From positions 62,001-126,000 of the forward strand of contig JAPPGK010000056.1 in assembly GCA_028821405.1 (NCBI GenBank): 64,000 bases of DNA, given 5' to 3'. Below the pieces are notes generated by a model. It was not told the origin of the DNA and searched no databases. It worked only from the letters and a program-made list of their open reading frames with translations. The DNA is from Gammaproteobacteria bacterium. Its GTDB lineage: Bacteria; Pseudomonadota; Gammaproteobacteria; Pseudomonadales; Azotimanducaceae. Positions 3,003 through 63,095 of the stretch are shown here, piece by piece (positions within the stretch are counted from its first letter, which is position 1; every line of letters begins with the position of its first letter). The position numbers were made by a program, and so were the translations under genes.

Positions 3003-3625
3003 GGCGCACGGATCCTGGTGCCACCCTTGGGCGTTGGTTCGATGCGGCAACGCGACGCGCCACCGCGGGTCTCGCCGAGCGCACCTCTCGCCGAGGGTTC
3101 ATCGGTCGCGTTGGTGCCGTGCTCGCCGGGTCCGGCGCGTTGCCTCTGCTGCCGGTAGCTCGAGCGTTCGGCGCTGAGGAAGCCGACGCGACCGGTGCCG
3201 AGGAGGTCGACGGGGATGAGGTCGAGCATCTAAGCGAGTTCGGCGATCCCAAGTCCTGCGACTATTGGCGCTATTGCGCGTTGGGCGGCACGCTTTGCGC
3301 CTGCTGCGGCGGTGGTCCGAGCAAATGCCCGCCCGGCGCTCAACCGTCGCCGGTGACCTGGATCGGCACCTGCCGAAACCCCGTGGACGGCAAGCAGTAC
3401 CTGATCTCCTACAACGACTGCTGCGGCAAAGCAGTCTGTCCCCGCTGTTTCTGTCACCGCACCGAAGGCGCCAAACCGGTCTATTTCCCGAGCAAGAGCA
3501 GCAACGTACTGTGGTGCTTCGGCGTCGACAGCAACGCCTACCACTGCACGTTGGCGACGGTGATCGGCGAGGCACCGGACGAAGCGCCGGCCCCGAAGGC
3601 CGAAGAATCCCCCACACACGAATGA
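2999..3625 (+). CDS. aauA: Amine dehydrogenase light chain (TTQ subunit), AauA type
   Basis: A 208-residue pre-protein with a twin-arginine signal (TSRRGFIGRVGAVLAGSG) and an acidic linker, then a cysteine-rich domain. The two tryptophans that form tryptophan tryptophylquinone are present, Trp121 in VTWIGTC and Trp172 in VLWCFG, 51 residues apart as in known light chains. There are 14 cysteines after residue 80. Twelve align with the six disulfides of methylamine dehydrogenase. Cys103 and Cys147 are additional and, as I recall, shared with aromatic amine dehydrogenase. Asp140 (SYNDCC) matches the catalytic Asp76. The second active-site aspartate (Asp32 of MADH, in a C-x-x-D-G context) is Gly96 here (CALGGTLC). 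Start fixed by AAGGAG just upstream. Confidence 0.9.
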   Translation: MRRTDPGATLGRWFDAATRRATAGLAERTSRRGFIGRVGAVLAGSGALPLLPVARAFGAEEADATGAEEVDGDEVEHLSEFGDPKSCDYWRYCALGGTLCACCGGGPSKCPPGAQPSPVTWIGTCRNPVDGKQYLISYNDCCGKAVCPRCFCHRTEGAKPVYFPSKSSNVLWCFGVDSNAYHCTLATVIGEAPDEAPAPKAEESPTHE

Positions 3626-4125
3626 GTGCCAATACGACACGGCCAAGGTTTACATCGCCGATAGCGAGCTTGACGATTTTCATGGCGTGCGCCGTCGCCG
3701 AAGCGGCCCCGGGGCGCGCGGACGAGGACGCAGCAGCCCGTTTCGACTACCTCCTGCACTGCTCCGGTTGTCACCGCACGGACGGCCGAGGATCCGCCCC
3801 CGACGTCCCGTCGCTCCGCGGGCCGGTGGGATCGCTGGTGGGAACTCCCGAAGGCCGTGAGTACATCGCCCGCGTTCCCGAGGTCGCGCAGTCGCCCCTC
3901 GACGACGAGGATCTCGCAAGGCTCTTGAACTGGGTGTTGCGGGAATTCAACGCCAAAACGCTCCCGCCCCGATTTCGCCCTCTGGATGGCGACGAGGTGG
4001 GGGCAGCCCGCGCGCGAATCCTCACCGACCCGTTGCGCGCCCGAGCCGCGATCAACAGCACTTACGCGCCAAAGGCCCCGGCGGCAGAGGAGGAAAGCGA
4101 ACCATTCCTTCGCGGTGTTGAATAG
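3622..4125 (+). CDS. Small periplasmic monohaem c-type cytochrome of the aau operon
   Basis: A 167-residue protein with an N-terminal hydrophobic leader and one haem-attachment motif, CSGCH at residues 47-51. It starts within the stop of aauA (ATGA overlap). A small periplasmic monohaem cytochrome (orf-2) occupies the same place in the published aau cluster, so a role as electron acceptor or accessory to the dehydrogenase is plausible. The conserved stretch IARVPEVAQSPLDDEDLARLLNWVL marks a class I-like fold. No methionine or histidine occurs after His51, so the usual sixth haem ligand is missing from the mature chain. The C-terminus ends in a Glu/Ala/Pro-rich tail. Confidence 0.8.
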   Translation: MSANTTRPRFTSPIASLTIFMACAVAEAAPGRADEDAAARFDYLLHCSGCHRTDGRGSAPDVPSLRGPVGSLVGTPEGREYIARVPEVAQSPLDDEDLARLLNWVLREFNAKTLPPRFRPLDGDEVGAARARILTDPLRARAAINSTYAPKAPAAEEESEPFLRGVE

Positions 4126-4244
4126 CTCCCGGTGGCCGCGGTATTGACTGCCCTTCAGCGCACCCAGATAATCGCGCGCCTCGGCTGAGAATCTCCCTAG
4201 CGAGCACTACGCGAGACCTTCCGGAGTATCCCTTTTCGACCCCT

Positions 4245-6383
4245 ATGGGTCTTTCCTGGCCAATGTCGATTTGGATGGACACTGTGCAGTTCCTTCGCCC
4301 GTCAACCGTCTTGCTCCCGTTGCTCCTAGGCGCCGTTAGCGCGGCGGAGCCAGTCGAGGGTCCCCATGGTGTTGCCACGCGCCTGTCCCAGGTGCCAACG
4401 CTGGACGGGAACGTGGCCGGCGACCCGGCGTGGGAGGGATTGTCCCCCTTCACCGGCTTCACCCAATTGAGGCCCGACAACGGCGCGCCCGCATCCGAAC
4501 GCACGGAGGTCTTCTTCGGCTTCACGGACGACGCGCTCCATGTGGGCGTTGTCTGCCATGAGACCGACCCCTCGGCCATCACCGTGTCCAACGAGGATCT
4601 CCAGTCCGATTCCTTCTCCATGGTCCTCGACACCTTCGGCACCGGAATCGCCGGCATGGTGTTCGGCACCAACCCGGTCGGCGCCGAGTACGATGGTCAG
4701 GTCGCCAACGAGTTCGCCGACTGGAACTGGAGCACCCTTTGGGAGGTGCGCACCCATACGCACGACTCGGGCTGGAGCGCCGAGTTTGCGATCCCGTTCC
4801 AGTCGCTACGCTACGGGTCCGGCGACATCCAGTCTTGGCGCGTCAACTTCGCTCGCGTGATCCGACGCCACAACGAGACCTCCTACTGGTCGCCGGTGCC
4901 ACGGCAGTTCAGCATGTTCCGGCTGTCGCTGGCCGGGCGGATCGACGGGATCCACGTACCTCCGCCACGTCGGAATCTCGAAATCACGCCCTATGTGCTC
5001 GGCAGCGCCAACCGCGGCGGCGATCTGGACCGTGTCCAACGCGACGACTACTTCGGCTTCGATGCGAAGTACTCGATCACGCCGAGTCTCACCCTCGACC
5101 TGACCTACAACACCGACTTCGCACAGGTGGAGTCCGACCGCCAGCAGGTCAATCTAGGGCGCTTCAGCTTGTTCTTTCCCGAGACGCGTCCTTTCTTCCT
5201 CGAGAACGCGGGCTCGTTCGGCATCGGCTTCCCGGACACGCAACTGTTCCATTCCCGGCGCATCGGCATCGCGCCGGACGGTCGCCGGCTGGCGATCGAG
5301 GGCGGCGTCCGGGTCTCGGGGAAGGTCGGCGTTGCAACCAATCTCGGTTTTCTGCACATGCGCACAGACGCTGCCGACCGCGCAGGGCGCAACGACTTCA
5401 CGGTCGCGCGCGTGAGCCGGGATCTCAGCAACCGGTCATCGGTGGGGTTCATCGCCACCGACCGACGCGGCCTCGGGCCGAGTAGTCAGACCTACGGCCT
5501 CGACGGGAGCCTCGGCATTGGCGCGAACGGGCAACTGCACGCGCTCGCCGCCCGAACCCCGGGCGTCGACAACGACCACGCCGTCAATCTGTTCGCCGGC
5601 TACAACTCCGCCGAATGGACGCTCGACGCCAGCTACGCCGAGGTGGGCGCGGGCTTTAATCCGGCCGTGGGATTCGTTGCCCGGCGTGACTTCCGCAGCT
5701 GGGGGACATTCGCGATGAGGAAGTTCGTGCACGAAGACACCCTGCGCGAGTGGCGTCCCCTCGTCGCCTACCAGGGGTTCTGGGACTTCGACGGCTACCA
5801 CGAGAGCGGCAGGCTCCACCTCGAGAGTTGGTGGGTCTGGAAGAGCGACGCCGACATCTGGCCTGCGGTGAATTTCTCCCACGAGGGCGTCAAGCACCCG
5901 TTCGCCATTGCCGGCGTCACGGTCCCTGCGGGGGACTACCAGACCCGCGACTTCGAGATGGGCATCAACTCGGCACCCAACAAGACCTGGAGCGGCGGCA
6001 CGCACCTGGTGACGGGCGGGTTCTACAACGGTCGCCGGCACGCCCTGTCCCCCTATGTCAACTACCGAAGGGACGAGAACTTCAGCGCCTGGGCGGGCTG
6101 GGATCACAACACCATCGACCTTCGGCAGCAGGACGGTTCGTTCAGCGTCAACCTTGCCCGGGCGGGGTTCTCCTATTCCTTCACGCCGAAGATCAACCTG
6201 CGCGCGCTGATCCAATACAACGATGCCGACGACGTGTTCTCGGCGAACGTCCGGTTCGCCTGGCTACGTGCCGCCAACGCGGGTCTCTACGTGGTGTACA
6301 ACGAGATCGACGCCCGCACCGGGCTTGGTCCGCCGCGTCGCGAACTGGTATTGAAGTACAGTCACATTTTCGACGTGTTGTAG
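4245..6383 (+). CDS. DUF5916 outer-membrane protein with N-terminal CBM9-like domain
   Basis: About 712 residues: a signal peptide (TVLLPLLLGAVSAAEP), then a family-9 carbohydrate-binding-like domain beginning at LDGNVAGDPAWEG, and a long beta-rich C-terminal region of the DUF5916 type, ending in an aromatic-terminated strand typical of outer-membrane barrels. ATG 4245 is used; 4263 and 4275 are alternative starts closer to the signal peptide, and none has a strong ribosome site. Alternating aromatic strands (NLEITPYVLGS, SLTLDLTYNTDFAQVESD) support a barrel. It follows the aau operon after 119 bp that show no clear terminator. The ligand and transported material are unknown. Confidence 0.75.
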   Translation: MGLSWPMSIWMDTVQFLRPSTVLLPLLLGAVSAAEPVEGPHGVATRLSQVPTLDGNVAGDPAWEGLSPFTGFTQLRPDNGAPASERTEVFFGFTDDALHVGVVCHETDPSAITVSNEDLQSDSFSMVLDTFGTGIAGMVFGTNPVGAEYDGQVANEFADWNWSTLWEVRTHTHDSGWSAEFAIPFQSLRYGSGDIQSWRVNFARVIRRHNETSYWSPVPRQFSMFRLSLAGRIDGIHVPPPRRNLEITPYVLGSANRGGDLDRVQRDDYFGFDAKYSITPSLTLDLTYNTDFAQVESDRQQVNLGRFSLFFPETRPFFLENAGSFGIGFPDTQLFHSRRIGIAPDGRRLAIEGGVRVSGKVGVATNLGFLHMRTDAADRAGRNDFTVARVSRDLSNRSSVGFIATDRRGLGPSSQTYGLDGSLGIGANGQLHALAARTPGVDNDHAVNLFAGYNSAEWTLDASYAEVGAGFNPAVGFVARRDFRSWGTFAMRKFVHEDTLREWRPLVAYQGFWDFDGYHESGRLHLESWWVWKSDADIWPAVNFSHEGVKHPFAIAGVTVPAGDYQTRDFEMGINSAPNKTWSGGTHLVTGGFYNGRRHALSPYVNYRRDENFSAWAGWDHNTIDLRQQDGSFSVNLARAGFSYSFTPKINLRALIQYNDADDVFSANVRFAWLRAANAGLYVVYNEIDARTGLGPPRRELVLKYSHIFDVL

Positions 6384-6418
6384 GTTGCGACCTACCGCGA
6401 GCAACCCTGGAGAAACGA

Positions 6419-7048
6419 ATGGCCGACGACTACACCCTGACCCTCTACACCCATCCGATGTCCCGCGGACGTATCGCGCGCTGGATGCTCGAGGAGGTCG
6501 GCGCCCGATACGACACCGTGCTCATGGAACTCGGCAGGAAGATCACCGATCCCGCGTTCCTGGACTTGAATCCCATGGGCAAGGTGCCCGTCATCGTCCA
6601 CGACGACGTCGTCGTCACCGAGTGCGCGGCGATCTGCGCCTACCTGGCCGACGCGTTCCCCGCAGCCGGCCTGGCACCGCCGACCGCCGAACGCGGCCCC
6701 TACTACCGTTGGCTGCTGTTCGGTGCCGGTTGCCTGGACCCGGCTGCCATCAACCAGGGTCTTGGCGTCGAGATCGCCCCGGAACAGGAAGGCATGGTGG
6801 GTTATCGGACCTTTGCCGCGACGCTCGACACCCTCGAATGGCAGCTCGCGAAATCGCCCCACATCGCCGGCGAGGCATGCACCGCCGCCGACGTCTACAT
6901 CGCCGCGCAATTGGGCTGGGGACTGCAATTCGGCTTCATCAAGGACCGACCCACGATTGCCGACTACGTCGATCGGATGTACGCGCGACCAGCCCACGAG
7001 CGAGCGGTGGCACTCGACGACGCGCTGGCGGCAACCTTGGCGGGGTAA
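6419..7048 (+). CDS. Glutathione S-transferase family protein
   Basis: A 209-residue cytosolic GST. The N-terminal thioredoxin-like domain runs from TLTLYTHPMSRGRIARWML, with the substrate-site Ser in PMSRGR, through the glutathione-binding NPMGKVPVIV and ECAAICAYLAD. The C-terminal helical domain contains the capping motif TAADVYIAAQLGW. Start at ATG 6419, with GGAG at -9. It lies 35 bp behind the DUF5916 gene on the same strand and may be its operon partner. The family conjugates or reduces electrophiles with glutathione; the substrate here is unknown. Confidence 0.88.
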   Translation: MADDYTLTLYTHPMSRGRIARWMLEEVGARYDTVLMELGRKITDPAFLDLNPMGKVPVIVHDDVVVTECAAICAYLADAFPAAGLAPPTAERGPYYRWLLFGAGCLDPAAINQGLGVEIAPEQEGMVGYRTFAATLDTLEWQLAKSPHIAGEACTAADVYIAAQLGWGLQFGFIKDRPTIADYVDRMYARPAHERAVALDDALAATLAG

Positions 7049-20394: not shown

Positions 20395-21515
20395 TTTGTT
20401 GACAGCTGCAGACTGTCCTCGAGGTAGCGCCCCTTGACCCCGACCTCGTAGTTGATCAACTCCTCGCCGTCGTATTGATATGGGCCATCCCCGGCGGCAC
20501 CGAAGCCGGCGGAGCCACCAGCCCGGAAGCCGGTGGCGACGCGACCGTAGATCATCACCCGATCGGTCGGTCGGTATTCGGCCCCGACGTTCCATGTGGT
20601 CTTGCCCCACTTGAGGTCGCCGCGTGGGGGAAAGATGCTCGAATCGCGGATCGCCAACCTGACGAGGGCGAAGCCGTTCTCGCAGAGGTCCAAGCCGTTT
20701 CTGCTGACGCCGGAATCGCAACCGACGTGTTCTGGAACAGCCAATCACCGGTGCTCGATGAGAAGCTCCGGGGTCGCCACACGTACGGTTCGTCGTTGGT
20801 CAGCGTGTTGGCGCCGAACGTGAAATTCAGCGGCCCGTCGAAGTTCGACACCAAGGTGATCTCGTGGCTGGTCTGTTCCGAGCTGAAGATGTAGTTGACC
20901 TGACTGTCGGTGAACAGGCCGACGCCGCCGCCGTCGAGGGCGCAGATCCGGTCGGTGGCACCTTCACGCAACATCCCCGACAGTACGCCCGGGTGATTGA
21001 AGGGACAGACACCGCCGCCGACTCGGTCGCGCTGGTCGCCGTCGTTCGTATTGCTGTTGATGACGTCGTGCCAGCCGAACTTGTAGTTCAGCGACAGGCT
21101 GTCGGTGAGCGAGAAGACGACGTCGAGCGCGAAGTTCTCGGCCGTGCTGTCCCTCGCGATGGGGGCATTGAACGCCACCTCCCAACGCAGCTCGTCCGGA
21201 TCGCAGATGATGTTCATCGGATCCCGGGTACCGTCCTGGTTGATGTTCGAGCAACCCGCGACCGCCGGGGCCGGCTGCACGCCGAAATACGGATTGCGCT
21301 GGCAGACCTCCTCGCCGGTGATGGGGTGGGCGGCGCACAACGGCTCGCCGTTGGGACCTAGGATGAACTCGTCCAGCGTGTTCTCCGGGCCAAGCGGTAT
21401 GGACGCGTTCGGCGTCCCTGTATCCCACATGTGCTGGTATTTCACGTTGACGTCCCAGCGGTCGTTCTTCCAGCGCAACTGCGGCGCCACGATCAACTCG
21501 TCCGGCAGGGTTCTG
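20395..21515 (-). pseudogene. Decayed TonB-dependent receptor, paralog of the intact receptor next door
   Basis: Minus-strand frames match the middle of the receptor at 21882-24806: LRWKNDRWDVNVKY, CSNINQDGTRDPMNIICDPD, YKFGWHDVINSNTNDGDQ and VNYIFSSEQTSHE. The signal peptide, plug and first strands are missing (homology begins near 21515). After WLFQNTS a deletion and frame change lead to KTTWNVGAEYRPTDRVMIYG, and homology stops at KGRYLEDSLQLS, where FG-GAP sequence begins. So it has lost both ends and part of the middle. It lies head to head with its intact paralog and was probably an inverted duplicate. Confidence 0.85.
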
Positions 21516-30374: not shown

Positions 30375-33300
30375 CCAATCCGTTCGTCGAAGCCGCGATC
30401 CGACGTTCGCGGACGACGCTGTTGCTGATGGCGATGGTGGTCATCGCCGGCGTCGTCGCCCGGATCGCCATTCCCATCGAAGCGTCGCCGAACGTCGAGG
30501 TGCCCGTGTTCCTTGTCGCGGTGCCGCACGAGGGCATCTCCCCCGAGGACTCGGCGCGGCTCTTGGTCAAGCCACTGGAAGCGGAGCTGCGCTCGATCGA
30601 GGGGGCCGAGGAGGTGCGTGCCTACGCCTACCAGGGCATGGCGCGCCTCGCGGTGGAGTTCGACGCCGACTACGACCTCGACGATGCGCTCAACGACGTG
30701 CGCGCCGCCGTGGACCGCGCCAGACCCCTGTTCCCCACCACGACGGAAGAGCCCTACATCCAGGAGATGAGCGCATCCACGTTCTCCATCGTGCAGATCA
30801 ACCTCGTGGGGGAAGGCGTTCACGAGCGCATCATCCACGACCTCGCGAAAGCGCTTCGCGACGACATCGAGGCGCTGCCCGAGGTTCTCGACGCCTACCT
30901 GCAGGGCGAGCGGGAGGAGTTGCTTGAGGTGGTCATCGACCCGGCTGCGCTGGAGGCCTACGAAGTCGGCAGCGGCGAACTCCTCAACACGATGGTGCGC
31001 AACAATCGGCTCATCGCCGCCGGTTCGCTCGATACGGGCACCGGCCGCATGGCGGTCAAAGTCCCCAGCGTCATCGAACGCGCGGCGGACATTTTCGAAC
31101 TGCCCATCAAGTCGAACGGCGACTCGGTGGTCACGCTGTCGGACATTGCGGAGATCCGCCGCACCTTCAAGGATCGCGTCAGTTTCGCCCGCGTGAACGG
31201 CAAGGACACCATCTCGATCGACGTGGGCAAGCGCGCCAACGCGAACCTGGTCGACACCGTCGACAAGGTCCTGGCCATCGCGGAGTCCTATCGCGAGCGG
31301 CTGCCCCGTAGCGTCGATTTGTTCTACACCCAAAACCAGGCGCCCTATGCACGCGACCAGGTGACGGAGTTGCAGGGCAATATCATCACCGCGCTCGCCC
31401 TCGTCATGGTTTTGGTGGTTGCCGTCATCGGGGTGCGCAGCGGTCTGATCGTCGGCGCCGCGATACCGGTGTCGTTCCTATTCGCGCTGATCTTCGTCTG
31501 GATGCTCGGCTACTCGTTCAACTTCATGGTCATGTTCGGCATGCTGCTCGGCCTCGGCATGCTCATCGACGGCGCCATCGTGGTGACCGAGTACGCCGAC
31601 CGCAAGATGGCCGAAGGGCTCACGCCCCGAGAAGCCTACGCGAACGCAGCCTCGCGAATGTTCTGGCCGGTTGCGGCGTCCGTCGCAACAACGCTGGCGG
31701 CTTTTCTGCCGCTTATTTTCTGGCCCGGCGTGGCCGGCAAATTCATGCGCTACCTACCCATCACCGTGTTCTTCGTTCTGACGGGGTCGCTGCTCTACGC
31801 CCTGGTATTCGGGCCGACCATCGGTTCGCTGATCGGCAAGGGGAGCGCCCGCGACGAGCGACTGAAACGGACGCTGCGCCAGCTCGAGGACGGCGACCCG
31901 ACCGAACTCAAGGGCTTTACCGGGACCTACGCGCGTCTGGTCCGGCGAACGTGCCGGCACGCCGGCTTCACGGTGCTGGCAACGGTCGCCATCCTCGCGG
32001 TGACGTTCTTCACCTACAACCAATACGGTCGCGGCATGACCTTCTTCTCGGACTCCGACCCGGCCTACGCCCAGGTGTCGGTGCGGGCGCGCGGCAACCT
32101 CTCGGCGCTCGAGACCTTCGCCCTGGTGAAGGAGGTCGAGCAACGGGTGCTCACGATCCCGGGAATCAAGAGCGTCAATACCTGGACACAGACCGGGGGT
32201 GGCGCCGGCATGGCCAGCATAGGCGGTTCCAGCAGCGCCTCGGACACCGTGGGGTCGCTCTACCTCGAGATGCACGAGGAATTCGAGCGTCGACTGAGCG
32301 GCTGGGAGATCCTCGAGGAAGTCCGGTCGCGGACGGCTGACCTAGCCGGCATCGGGGTGGATGTGCAGGAGCTGGAAGACGGCCCGCCCGTCGGCAAACC
32401 GGTGCAGATCCAGTTCTCAGGAAACGACAAGGCGCTGCTCGGCCCGGTCGTGGCGCGTGTCCGCGACCATCTCGACAACGAGGTCGAAGGCTTGCGCGAC
32501 ATCGAGGACACGCGATCGCTGCCAGGCGTCGAGTGGAAACTCAGCGTCGACCGTGCCCAGGCGGCGCTCTACAACGCGGACGTATCCCTCGTCGGCGTCG
32601 CTGTCCAGTTGGTAACCAACGGGGTCTGGGTCGGTGAGTACCGGCCGGACACCGCGGACGACGCCGTGGACATCCGGGTCCGCTACCCAAGGAGCGCCCG
32701 GGGCTTGAGCGCGCTGGACGAGCTCAAGATCACGACGCCCAAGGGTCTCGTCCCCATCTCGAACTTCGTGCAACGCGAAGCCGTACCCAACCTCGACGCC
32801 ATCGAACGCATCGACGGCCGGGTGGTGATGTTCATCCGTGCCAACGTGGCCCCCGGCGTGCTCGCCGACGACAAGGTCGGCGAAATCCAGGCGTGGCTCG
32901 AGCGCGCTGAATTGGATCCCCGCGTCGATATCACCTTCCGGGGTGCAAACGAAGAGCAGGCCGAGTCCATCGCCTTCATCGTGGTCGCGCTGGTGATGTC
33001 CCTGCTGTTGATGTTCGTGCTGCTCGTGACCCAGTTCAACAGTCTCTACCAAGCGGCGCTGATCCTCGTTGCCGTGATCATGTCGACGGCCGGTGTGCTG
33101 ATCGGCCTCCTGGTGACCGGAAGTCCGTTCAGCGCGATTCTCACCGGCGTGGGGGTGGTCGCCCTTGCGGGAATCGTCGTCAACAACAACATCGTGCTCA
33201 TCGATACCTACAACCACATCCGCGAGAGGCATCCAGAGCTCGAGCCGGTCGAAGTGATCATCCGCACCGGGGCGCAGCGCTTTCGACCGGTACTGCTGAC

Positions 33301-43930: not shown

Positions 43931-44075
43931 GGCGGCGGCTTCACGTCCATGGAAACGCCCCACAGCCGGCCCGGCGCAAGTCCGACGGATTCGCATCGCT
44001 CGCGTGGCCATCGTGCGCGAGTCTTTGCATCGCCAGGGGTCGGGATGCACACTCCGCATCCGGAGGTGCGGTTTG

Positions 44076-45305
44076 ATGGTTCTAAGCGAACGCGTTGTCT
44101 CAGGCAGGGGTGCCGCCCATGGCGTCTACTCCCGACGCTCCATGCTGCGTGGTTCACTGGCCACGGTCTCCGCGGCCCTGTGTCCGCTAGCCGCCGGTCA
44201 ACCGGTCCTGCCAGCCATTCCCGGCAAACCCGGACTCAAGGTCTTGAGCGAGCGCCCCATCAATGCCGAGACCCCGGCGCACCTTTTGGACGACCCGGTC
44301 ACGCCGGCCGAGCGGATGTTCGTGCGCAACAACGGGATACCGCCGGACACCCGGGACATCGATCCTCTCAACTGGACGCTTGAACTGGCCGGGGAGGCAT
44401 GCGCACGGCCAATGCAACTCACGCTCGGCGAACTCAAGGACCGTTTCGAGCACGTCACGCTTGCGCTTCAGATCGAATGCGGCGGCAACGGCCGCTCCGA
44501 ATTCCATCCGCCCGCCCGCGGCAACCAGTGGACGACGGGCGCGGTGGCGTGTCCAAGATTCACCGGCGTGCGCCTCAAGGACGTGCTTGAGTACTGCGGC
44601 ACAACCGACGCGGCCGTCTACGTGGCCTACGAAGCCGCCGACACGCATCTGTCCGGGGATCCGACCAAGCAACCCATCTCCCGGGGGGTGCCGATGCACA
44701 AGGCCCTTGAGGCCGAGACGCTGATCGCCTGGGCGATGAACGGCGAGCCGCTGCCACCGCTCCATGGGTATCCATTGCGCCTGGTTGCCGGCGGCTGGCC
44801 CGGTTCCGTGAGCGGCAAGTGGCTGAAGCGCATCCTGGTGCGAGACCGCGTCCACGACGGACCGAAGATGGGTGGCCAATCGTATCGCGTGCCTTGCGAT
44901 CCCGTGGCGCCCGGGGCGACGGTCCCGGACGAGGCCATGTGCATCATCGAGTCGATGCCCGTGAAGTCGCTCATCACCCATCCGCGTTCCGGCAGCCGCC
45001 AGGAACGGGCGAAGCCCATTGCCGTTCGCGGCCACGCCTGGGCCGGCGACCTTGGCGTGGCCAGCGTGTTCACGTCCATCGACTTCGGCGCCACGTGGCA
45101 ACCCGCCGATCTGAACGAGCCGGCGAATCGCCTTGCTTGGCAGCAATGGTCGACGAACATTGCCATCCCGACGCTCGGGTATTACGAGATCTGGGCTCGT
45201 GCGGTCGACGAGAACGGGCGTTCCCAACCCTTGGTCTTGCCAGGCTGGAACCCGCGCGGGTACTTGAACAACGCCTGCCACCGAATCGCGTTGGCCGTGG
45301 CATGA
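44076..45305 (+). CDS. Sulfite oxidase family molybdoenzyme (SorA-like)
   Basis: A 409-residue periplasmic molybdopterin protein. A twin-arginine-like leader (YSRRSMLRGSLATVSAALC) precedes the oxidoreductase molybdopterin domain with the Mo-ligating cysteine, Cys135 in LQIECGGNGRSEF, then the C-terminal dimerisation domain (KSLITHPRSG to GWNPRGYLNN). ATG 44076 has GGAGG nine bases upstream. It overlaps by four bases (ATGA) the small c-type cytochrome gene, the arrangement of sulfite dehydrogenase SorAB. Probable reaction: sulfite to sulfate with electrons passed to the cytochrome; other sulfur or sulfoxide substrates are possible. Confidence 0.86.
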   Translation: MVLSERVVSGRGAAHGVYSRRSMLRGSLATVSAALCPLAAGQPVLPAIPGKPGLKVLSERPINAETPAHLLDDPVTPAERMFVRNNGIPPDTRDIDPLNWTLELAGEACARPMQLTLGELKDRFEHVTLALQIECGGNGRSEFHPPARGNQWTTGAVACPRFTGVRLKDVLEYCGTTDAAVYVAYEAADTHLSGDPTKQPISRGVPMHKALEAETLIAWAMNGEPLPPLHGYPLRLVAGGWPGSVSGKWLKRILVRDRVHDGPKMGGQSYRVPCDPVAPGATVPDEAMCIIESMPVKSLITHPRSGSRQERAKPIAVRGHAWAGDLGVASVFTSIDFGATWQPADLNEPANRLAWQQWSTNIAIPTLGYYEIWARAVDENGRSQPLVLPGWNPRGYLNNACHRIALAVA

Positions 45306-45703
45306 CCCCGCCCGAGCCGGATCGCCGCGGACGGCGAACGACTCCCCCGACCCGGGATGTGTGGCCTATCCGCCTGCTCGTCGTTGCGATTCTGCCGGCT
45401 TTGGCCCTAGCCGCCGAGACCGACACCGACACCGGCCTCGTCACGACGCCCGGCTGGGAAGATGTCCGCGCCCACTGCGGCGGCTGCCACGCCTACAGCG
45501 TCGTCACGAACCAACGTGCCAACCGGGACGCCTGGCGCGACATGATCCGCTGGATGCAGCGCACCCAGAACCTCTGGCAGATCCCGGACGAGACCGAGAC
45601 CCGGATCCTCGACTACCTCGCCGAGAACTACGGACCCGACGAGGCAGTGCGGCAGCGACGGGCGCCGATTGCCGAGGCGTTGATGCCACCGCGGGACGGT
45701 TGA
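45302..45703 (+). CDS. Monohaem c-type cytochrome (SorB-like)
   Basis: A 133-residue protein with a hydrophobic leader (IRLLVVAILPALALA) and one haem motif, CGGCH at 59-63; Met85 (WMQRTQNLW) is a candidate sixth ligand. It starts within the stop of the sulfite oxidase-like gene, so it is its likely electron acceptor. The ILDYLAENYGPDEAV ending is typical of small cytochromes bound to molybdoenzymes. The gap to the next gene is 94 bp. Confidence 0.83.
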   Translation: MTPPEPDRRGRRTTPPTRDVWPIRLLVVAILPALALAAETDTDTGLVTTPGWEDVRAHCGGCHAYSVVTNQRANRDAWRDMIRWMQRTQNLWQIPDETETRILDYLAENYGPDEAVRQRRAPIAEALMPPRDG

Positions 45704-45797
45704 CGACCGATCTGGCACACGCCCCACTTGAGAACGCACGACGGCACCATCCGCCACGATTAACCCGGGCAACAGCAGCAGCAACAGGAGCAAGAGT

Positions 45798-46295
45798 ATG
45801 GAGAAGCTAACGACAGGGGACGATTTCCCGAACCTGACGCTGAACCTGGCAGACGGCGGCACCCTCGAGCTACCCAGGGACATCGACACCAAATTCGCGA
45901 TTGTGCTGTTCTATCGAGGCCACTGGTGACCCTACTGCATCCGCCTTCTGGCTGGATACGGAGAGCGCCGTGTCGCGTTCGCAGAACAAGGGTCAAGCAT
46001 ATTCGCGGCCGCCGTTGATACCCGAGATCAAGCTCTCAAAGTCGCCGGACCACTTGGGTTCCCCATCGCATACGGGGTGACGCGCGAACACGCAGATTTG
46101 CTTGGCGCGTGGTGGGAAGAACAGCGCGAGTTCATACAACCGAGCGAATTCCTCTTGACCCGCAACGGCAAGGTTCAGATGTCCACCTACAGCAATTCGC
46201 CGATTGGAAGGATGGACCCGGCCGAGATGCTCACGCTGCTAACAATGGTGAATTCCCGAAACAATAGGGGAAACAACAGGGGAAAAAAAAGCTAG
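45798..46295 (+). CDS. Peroxiredoxin-like thioredoxin-fold protein with in-frame TGA, candidate selenoprotein
   Basis: A 165-residue redoxin read through an in-frame TGA at 45927-45929. ATG 45798 has AGGAG seven bases before it. The protein opens with EKLTTGDDFPNLTLNL, then KFAIVLFYRGHW, the TGA at residue 44, and PYCIRLLAGYG with Cys47. In the common Cys-type homologs this spot reads GHWCPYC, so the TGA stands exactly at the first active-site cysteine, giving Sec-x-x-Cys. The rest continues in frame for 118 codons with normal redoxin text (FAAAVDTRDQALKVAGPLGFPIAYGV, FLLTRNGKVQ), without further damage. The stop at 46293 follows a repetitive NNRGNNRGKKS tail. The alternative is a recent nonsense mutation. 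sel genes are not in the window. Confidence 0.75.
45956..45973 (+). promoter_or_regulatory. SECIS-like hairpin downstream of the TGA codon
   Basis: ATACGG, loop AGAGCG, CCGTGT form a 6-bp stem (one U-G pair) with a G as the second loop base, 34 bases after the TGA, inside the 16-37-base window usually quoted for bacterial SECIS elements. A competing hairpin at 45939-45957 (ATCCGCC, loop TTCT, GGC, a bulged T, GGAT) also exists but lacks a G early in its loop. Both are predictions by eye. Confidence 0.45.
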
Positions 46296-62024: not shown

Positions 62025-63095
62025 TCACAGCGCCCGGGCAAGGGCCGCACAGAACTCCGTGGTCGTCGCCGTGCCGCCCTGGTCCGGCGTCAGCGCCGAG
62101 CCGTCCGCATAGACCCGGGCCAACGCGCCCTCGATCCGGGTCGCCGCAGTTTCGAGACCGAGATAGTCGAGCATCATCGTCGTCGACAGTATAGTCGCCG
62201 TCGGGTTGATGATATTCCTGCCGGCGATGTCGGGCGCGGTGCCGTGGGCCGGTTCGAAGTAGGCGTAGTCCGTGCCAAAACAGCCGCTTGCCGCGAGGCC
62301 TAGGCTGCCGAGCAGACCGCCCGCCGCGTCGGACAGAATATCGCCGTACTGGTTCGGCATCACCACGACGTCGAAGCGCTCGGGCTCGCGGATCATCCGG
62401 CAGGCGAAGTCGTCGACGATGAACGACTCGAACGCGATGTCCGGATAGTCAGCCGCGATCTCGCGCGCCACCTCTAGGAACAGGCCATCCGTGACCCGCA
62501 GCATGTTGTGCTTGGTCGCACAGGTCAGTTTGCGTTTGCCGGCGCGCTTGGCCGCCAGATCGAAGGCGAATCTGACAACGCGTTCCGTACCCTCCCGGGT
62601 GATTGCCTTGATGGCGTAGCGGCCGTCGCCGAGTTCGTGCACCGGCTTGCGAATCGTGCGGCCAACGAGGTTCAACGCGGCCAAGTCCGTGAGCGGTCCC
62701 TCGGCGCCGACGTAGAGATCTTCGAGGTTCTCCCGCACGATCACGAAGTCGATGCCTTCCGGTTGGCTCAAGGGGCTCGCGCAGCCGGGGAGGTATCGGC
62801 ACGGCCGAACGTTTGCGAAAGTCTCCTTGCCCCACCGCAGATACCCGAGCGCGGCACCGGACTTGCCACTGGTGGAGCCGAACAGCGTCGTGTCGGCGGC
62901 GTCGATGACGGCCCTAGCCGAGTCGGGAAACGTCGAACCGGCCGCGTCCGAAGCACCCGCCGCCTCGGCGGCCTCGCCCACCTCTGGATAGACCCACGTC
63001 AAACCCAGTTGAAGCGAGTCGAGCAACGCAACCACCGGACGCACCGCCTCCGGCGCAGCGTCGTCGCCCTCGATGACAGCGATGGTCTTGTTCAA
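62025..63095 (-). CDS. Isocitrate/isopropylmalate dehydrogenase family protein
   Basis: A 356-residue beta-decarboxylating dehydrogenase. Seen: TIAVIEGDDAAPEAVRP at the N-terminus (the GDGxGPE motif is degenerate as GDDAAPE), IVRENLEDLYVGAEG, KHNMLRVTDGLFLEVAREI, VVMPNQYGDILSDAAGGLLGSLG and APDIAGRNIINPTATILS. Substrate class is open: isocitrate, isopropylmalate, tartrate or homoisocitrate. It heads a two-gene unit with the acyltransferase. Confidence 0.87.
   Translation of the reverse strand: MNKTIAVIEGDDAAPEAVRPVVALLDSLQLGLTWVYPEVGEAAEAAGASDAAGSTFPDSARAVIDAADTTLFGSTSGKSGAALGYLRWGKETFANVRPCRYLPGCASPLSQPEGIDFVIVRENLEDLYVGAEGPLTDLAALNLVGRTIRKPVHELGDGRYAIKAITREGTERVVRFAFDLAAKRAGKRKLTCATKHNMLRVTDGLFLEVAREIAADYPDIAFESFIVDDFACRMIREPERFDVVVMPNQYGDILSDAAGGLLGSLGLAASGCFGTDYAYFEPAHGTAPDIAGRNIINPTATILSTTMMLDYLGLETAATRIEGALARVYADGSALTPDQGGTATTTEFCAALARAL

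Follow-up and report, generated by a model that had tools for sequence, protein, structure and literature searches.

Introduction

Does the TGA codon that interrupts a redoxin gene in a gammaproteobacterial genome end the protein, or does it encode selenocysteine (Sec, U), and if Sec is inserted, which part does it play in the active site? The question is raised by positions 45798 to 46295 of the window, by which we mean the whole stretch of DNA analysed, 64,000 nucleotides (64 kb) in length. From the sequence evidence presented here, we infer that Sec is inserted at codon 44. The gene is very probably that of a 165-residue selenoprotein, a peroxiredoxin (Prx)-like oxidoreductase of the thioredoxin fold with a UxxC site, in which Sec would be incorporated by SelB and Sec-tRNA with the help of a downstream hairpin.

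The Redoxin Gene and Its In-Frame TGA

The Prx-like redoxin (AhpC/TSA, PF00578) is encoded on the plus strand at 45798..46295 as a protein of 165 residues, and the reading frame stops at a TAG. Apart from this TAG at codon 166, the only in-frame stop is the TGA of codon 44 (45927..45929, plus strand). It lies in the active-site motif FYRGHW-TGA-PYC, where, read as Sec, it would provide the first position of UxxC with Cys47 as the second. The read-through protein matches PF00578 (AhpC-TSA) with 60 bits against a cut-off of 26. A Shine-Dalgarno sequence, AGGAG, can be read at 45786..45790 (plus strand), 7 nt 5′ of the ATG. The earlier note had described a single in-frame TGA at the first position of the motif, no other lesion in the reading frame, and a good ribosome site before the ATG; the translation and the listing of stops confirm the first two points, and the AGGAG agrees with the third. 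The ORF listing is in line with its expectation that a gene caller would miss or split the gene. With translation table 11, the sole open reading frame (ORF) of at least 60 aa in the redoxin frame is a 72-aa C-terminal fragment (46077-46295) from which the active site is absent.

Codon usage alone would not single out the redoxin TGA: among the 277 TGA codons flanked on each side by 35 or more open codons, it ranks 12th. It is more than a chance occurrence because relatives have the same TGA, that is, by homology. The codon-usage scan was also used to look for other TGA-interrupted genes in the window, and its two top-scoring places, 16490 and 14590, were rejected by eye since each looks like the end of one gene followed by the next. 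No tRNA was found in the 64-kb window by ARAGORN, and Rfam at the gathering threshold gave no match there.

Active Site, Fold, and Proposed Mechanism

The AlphaFold model of the redoxin, calculated with Cys at position 44, has a peroxiredoxin/thioredoxin fold (pLDDT 90.1, pTM 0.85) and places residue 44 directly before a helix formed by residues 45-56. In the model, this residue appears to stand where thioredoxin-like CxxC sites have their reactive Cys. Peroxiredoxins or their close kin (BCP-, Prx1-, and AhpC-type) make up the best 50 Foldseek matches, with query TM-scores of at most 0.82 and identities of 16-21%. Both motif columns of U44-P-Y-C47 are invariant in the 17 rows of alignment A1 (U read as C); because Cys47 is as invariant as residue 44, conservation does not decide between the roles of Sec44 and Cys47.

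Canonical peroxiredoxins are characterized by a PxxxTxxC/U motif and a catalytic Arg. The redoxin departs from this pattern, with Arg40 in place of the Pro, Sec44 in place of the Thr, and Gln127 in the column of the LRQ Arg of PRDX2, a variable column that holds Arg in one of the 17 sequences (L014). Those NCBIfam peroxiredoxin models that match the redoxin at all remain far below their cut-offs. In the alignment to PRDX2, Cys47 falls on the Cys of TxxC, which we take to be the peroxidatic Cys, and residue 44 falls on the Thr, which argues for a UxxC "Prx-like" redoxin rather than a canonical peroxiredoxin with a peroxidatic Sec. In the alignment to ResA, Sec44 and Cys47 fall on the two Cys of CxxC. 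The earlier description of the protein as peroxiredoxin-like, with the catalytic Cys at the TGA, can therefore be refined: the protein is an AhpC/TSA redoxin and homologs have Cys at this position, but the peroxidatic column of PRDX2 corresponds to Cys47.

Two assignments of roles can be weighed on these alignments. If Sec is inserted and the enzyme is nevertheless a classical peroxidase, Cys47 would be the peroxidatic residue and Sec44 the resolving one, in agreement with the PRDX2 alignment and with the nearest solved folds, which are peroxiredoxins; with both the Pro and the Thr of PxxxTxxC replaced, and a Gln at the LRQ Arg position, we consider this assignment unlikely. A thioredoxin-like cycle of two residues, with Sec44 attacking, Cys47 resolving, and a peroxide or a protein disulfide as the substrate, is favoured because the Pro and the LRQ Arg are absent and the CxxC of ResA aligns with Sec44 and Cys47. 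In our reading, the SelB/Sec-tRNA complex, guided by the hairpin just 3′ of codon 44, would insert Sec there instead of allowing termination. Sec44 would then most likely attack the peroxide or disulfide substrate, Cys47 would resolve the intermediate as a local Se-S bond, and a cellular dithiol reductant would open this bond.

Selenocysteine Machinery of the Genome

The genome from which the window derives (4.77 Mb, 122 contigs, 97.6% complete) was scanned for selA, selB, selC, and selD, as the earlier note had proposed, and all four are present over their cut-offs. Three of them lie side by side on the minus strand of contig C60: selA at 5467-6780 (517 bits), selB at 3587-5422 (383 bits), and the gene for tRNA-Sec at 3437-3526 (72 bits; anticodon tca by ARAGORN). 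The selD gene is found on C28 with 252 bits, and, as for selA and selB, the match is over the curated cut-off.

A TGA read as another residue, Cys or Trp, through a code change or near-cognate suppression would suit the Cys present at this column in six of the seven more distant homologs read there (L022, L066, L067, L068, L105, and L106; the seventh, L104, has TGA). Such a reading is very unlikely, however, in a genome with SelA, SelB, SelD, and a tRNA-Sec of anticodon tca, and the redoxin gene of three relatives (L007, L010, and L015) itself terminates in TGA. In these relatives, the internal TGA must be read otherwise than the terminal one, and TGA is not simply reassigned.

Three further genes of the same genome have an in-frame TGA, in each case at a known Sec motif. 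The first encodes a TxxU peroxiredoxin with the motif TGGU (L108; G000:C107, TGA at 62167, minus strand; PF00578, 101.5 bits), the second another UxxC Prx-like protein with the motif SADWUPFC (L110; G000:C83, TGA at 21216, plus strand; PF00578, 77.6 bits), and the third a SelW-like Rdx protein with the CxxU motif YCTSU (L127; G000:C10, TGA at 32039, plus strand; PF10262, 63.2 bits, 72 codons read). As only two families were used in this search, the selenoproteome of the genome is probably larger. The stretches 3′ of these three TGA codons fold no better than shuffled sequences. The redoxin on C83 also has an apparent signal peptide, seen by eye as a leader.

The TGA Column across Relatives

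Eighteen loci were found in GTDB contigs, and the 16 full-length ones were counted; a 29-residue C-terminal fragment (L023) and a 28-residue local match judged unrelated by eye (L024) were dropped. Codon 44 is TGA in 15 of the 16 and TGC in one, L022, from a Dehalococcoidia MAG and 45% identical. The alignment profile was also run on 150 sampled genomes of the window's family, where it matches 66 places. Among these, 61 loci in 60 genomes are strong matches (E ≤ 1.5e-50), and every one has TGA at codon 44 (61/61); all 61 were checked and have U within the motif [RK]GxWUxxC. The two counts are not additive because seven of the strong family loci are identical to GTDB-contig loci over the segment compared. 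The comparison of homologs at this column, which the earlier note had suggested, thus returned the same TGA almost throughout.

Five weak family places were kept apart (G064, second copies in G018 and G118, G110, and G112). The second copy of G118 and the copy in G110 are distant homologs (66-72 bits) with Cys at the Sec column, and G112 has a C-terminal fragment with TAG. The second copy of G018 (L104; G018:C104:7267-8250) is a distant family homolog with TGA at the same motif, GHWUPAC, and a close copy is found elsewhere in the same genome. The copy in G064 (L103; G064:C15:88731-89633) is broken by a frameshift just past the retained TGA, with its two parts in different frames, through either gene decay or an assembly fault. 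The earlier note had counted random codons or further frameshifts in relatives as signs against Sec; the same TGA is kept, and the one frameshift seen is that of G064.

Beyond the family, a class sample of 369 genomes yielded four matches with E ≤ 1e-20, of which one is the window's own gene and the other three have Cys at the Sec column. None of the genomes of these three Cys forms appears in the list of 30 that have a selA match of any strength. No match to the redoxin was found in the phage records searched.

Selection was assessed with our own NG86 script against six of the 15 TGA relatives. Upstream of the TGA, dN/dS is 0.03-0.30, and in the 100 codons that follow it 0.14-0.20 (dS 0.21-0.78), so the downstream part looks translated and selected. 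A nonsense mutation that truncated the redoxin and left a pseudogene would account for the in-frame stop and has a visibly broken relative, G064, on its side, and is still less probable than a reading as Cys or Trp: the identical TGA recurs in all of the strong family matches, purifying selection acts on both sides of it, no further in-frame stop occurs, and sel machinery is present in the genome. The kept TGA, this machinery, and purifying selection strongly support the view of the earlier note that Sec is to be favoured over a nonsense mutation. A sequencing or assembly error at 45927-45929, which had been named as a possible refutation and would be conceivable only if a single genome were viewed, is excluded because many MAGs of other genera, each assembled separately, have the same codon, among them L011, a single contig of 4.3 Mb. 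All three alternatives, a pseudogene, a sequencing error, and a reassigned code, were accordingly rejected on the shared TGA, selection, the machinery, and the terminal TGAs.

The Downstream Hairpin as a Candidate SECIS

A bacterial SECIS hairpin is predicted at 45939..45957 (plus strand), 10-28 nt after the TGA, with the apical loop at 45946-45949 in the window's fold; it is kept across relatives, partly by paired changes, and its pair 45940-45956 covaries. The stem (columns 32-37/43-48) was tested on 34 distinct sequences, from 35 rows of which one duplicates the window. Pairing is found in 91.2% of 204 cells against a shuffle mean of 79.9%, and neither this fraction nor the covariation score is reached by any of 500 shuffles, although shared ancestry inflates both measures. 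Slid registers are paired in 13-53%, a comparison in which the stem is favoured because it was derived from these same sequences. Two of the five covariation measures are unremarkable: the number of pairs changed on both sides (three) is reached by 94 of 500 shuffles, and the number of further pair types (seven) by 107 of 500.

Only two states occur at the strongest covarying pair, 32-48: T-A in 16 and G-C in 20 of 36 sequences. Column 48 is the third position of a Gly codon that does not vary, and so the change there is silent. Of the Gly codons, GGA is used least in the long ORFs of the window (240 of 1,818, counted in the window only), yet every row with T at column 32 has it. On the tree, this pair needs 2-3 changes, of which well-supported branches force one, so its covariation represents few events. 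At pair 36-44, both sides have changed in five cells, and ten cells, the window's included, are unpaired. In the Cys relative L022, pair 32-48 is broken and the segment folds about like its shuffles (68 of the 200 fold as well).

The hairpin of the window itself folds with a z-score of -1.65, and its inner stem is interrupted by a C-C mismatch or bulge. Folding energy does not discriminate here because the terminal TGA of L007 also precedes a stable hairpin, and it was set aside as weak evidence for a SECIS. It is conservation, not folding energy, that points to the candidate SECIS. Bacterial SECIS elements have a G among the first two bases of the apical loop. The window's loop, UUCU, has no early G, and the loop of L017, AGUUG, has one. 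A second hairpin (GAGCGC/GCGTTC) is predicted at 45963..45980 (plus strand) in the window and consensus folds and in many relatives, and coding constraint only may explain it.

Selenocysteine Use in the Family and the Class

The window's family mostly keeps Sec decoding, with a selA match over the cut-off in 125 of 150 genomes; in the class sample, where 17 of 369 genomes have one, Sec use is rare. Inside the family, 52 of the 60 carriers of the redoxin and 73 of the 90 non-carriers have selA over the cut-off; co-occurrence with sel genes is uninformative at this level because most genomes have selA. In four carriers (G018, G027, G069, and G139), the selA match stays under the cut-off, and four others, 87-96% complete, have no selA match at all and no selB over its cut-off (G041, G079, G087, and G104). 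A tRNA-Sec is kept in three of the latter, found by Rfam in G041 and by ARAGORN in G087 (G087:C6:96744-96834) and G104 (G104:C24:7251-7341), where the RF01852 score of 45.8 bits is just under the Rfam cut-off of 47; G079 has no tRNA-Sec over the cut-off. The tRNA-Sec retained in these three genomes fits assembly gaps as the cause of the absent selA and selB.

Relation to Known Selenoproteins

"Prx-like 1" (PF00578, UxxC) is an abundant selenoprotein family of the Global Ocean Sampling (GOS) data, entered in Table 2 of that study with 225 Sec and 2,740 Cys forms (PMC2398784), and a "Prx-like thiol:disulfide oxidoreductase" (PF00578, UxxC/UxxU) is listed as predicted with high confidence in a 2026 review (PMC13188914). 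Going by these two entries, the kind of protein to which the redoxin belongs is already known. The likeness to the GOS family lies in domain and motif, namely PF00578 and UxxC with Sec first, and in the occurrence in marine bacteria; according to the same table, the GOS family is a mixture of Sec and Cys forms (PMC2398784), unlike the redoxin clade, in which all 61 strong family matches have TGA.

Other selenoproteins and redoxins are less close. TxxU peroxiredoxins (PF00578), of which the same genome has one on C107, share the fold, but their Sec follows the Thr and stands at the peroxidatic column, whereas the Sec of the redoxin takes the Thr position and a Cys stands at the peroxidatic column. 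The redox domain of the SelL-related redox protein model (NF040769) is weakly similar: each of the 17 members of A1 matches it with E ≤ 1, the best at 1.6e-5, but the window protein scores 12.1 bits against a cut-off of 120 and falls outside that family. ResA-type thiol-disulfide oxidoreductases have a CxxC that aligns residue by residue with UxxC, but here the window protein scores 19 bits against a cut-off of 170, and no signal peptide is seen by eye in its translation. ResA is also the best match among the listed NCBIfam models over the 17 members (E 1.6e-7), in a comparison where cut-offs are shown for the first member only. The window protein stays under the cut-off of every NCBIfam model, and public annotation therefore probably loses or splits the clade.

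Any novelty may lie in the clade rather than in the kind. We lean slightly towards a Sec-only Prx-like clade that is present in 60 of the 150 genomes sampled from a single gammaproteobacterial family that commonly uses Sec. No Cys form of comparable score was found in the 150-genome family sample, whose two Cys homologs are the distant ones in G118 and G110, and this suggests that Sec is hard to replace in the redoxin clade. With no close Cys form found, the clade lends itself well to asking why Sec is kept in some lineages and Cys used in others. The family to which it belongs consists mainly of uncultured bacteria and has kept Sec decoding, whereas selA is absent from most of the class members sampled. 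Some isolate names in the family presumably point to sponge and ocean samples. A search of the literature for selenoproteins in sponge symbionts or MAGs found no paper on the subject. The redoxin is one more active-site gene broken by table-11 gene calling, and with a family model that marks the Sec column, annotation could catch it in at least the 60 carriers.

Genomic Neighbourhood

To find partners of the redoxin, neighbouring ORFs of 90 aa or more were compared at 40 loci, some of which share a MAG and many of which have flanks of only about 1.5 kb. No constant operon partner was seen in these 40 loci, and other clusters of true neighbours comprise at most seven loci (five distinct MAGs). 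The window's own neighbours recur only in near relatives, except that one downstream neighbour has a weak match in L021. Upstream of the redoxin and on the same plus strand, a sulfite-oxidase-like molybdopterin oxidoreductase (44004..45305; PF00174 and PF03404) is followed by a small cytochrome-like protein (45308..45703), recognized by eye from its CxxCH haem motif and without a Pfam match. This pair (44004-45703) resembles one of the SorAB type, and both genes stand beside the redoxin only in near relatives. In L007 and L009, about 2 kb lie between the cytochrome-like gene and the redoxin.
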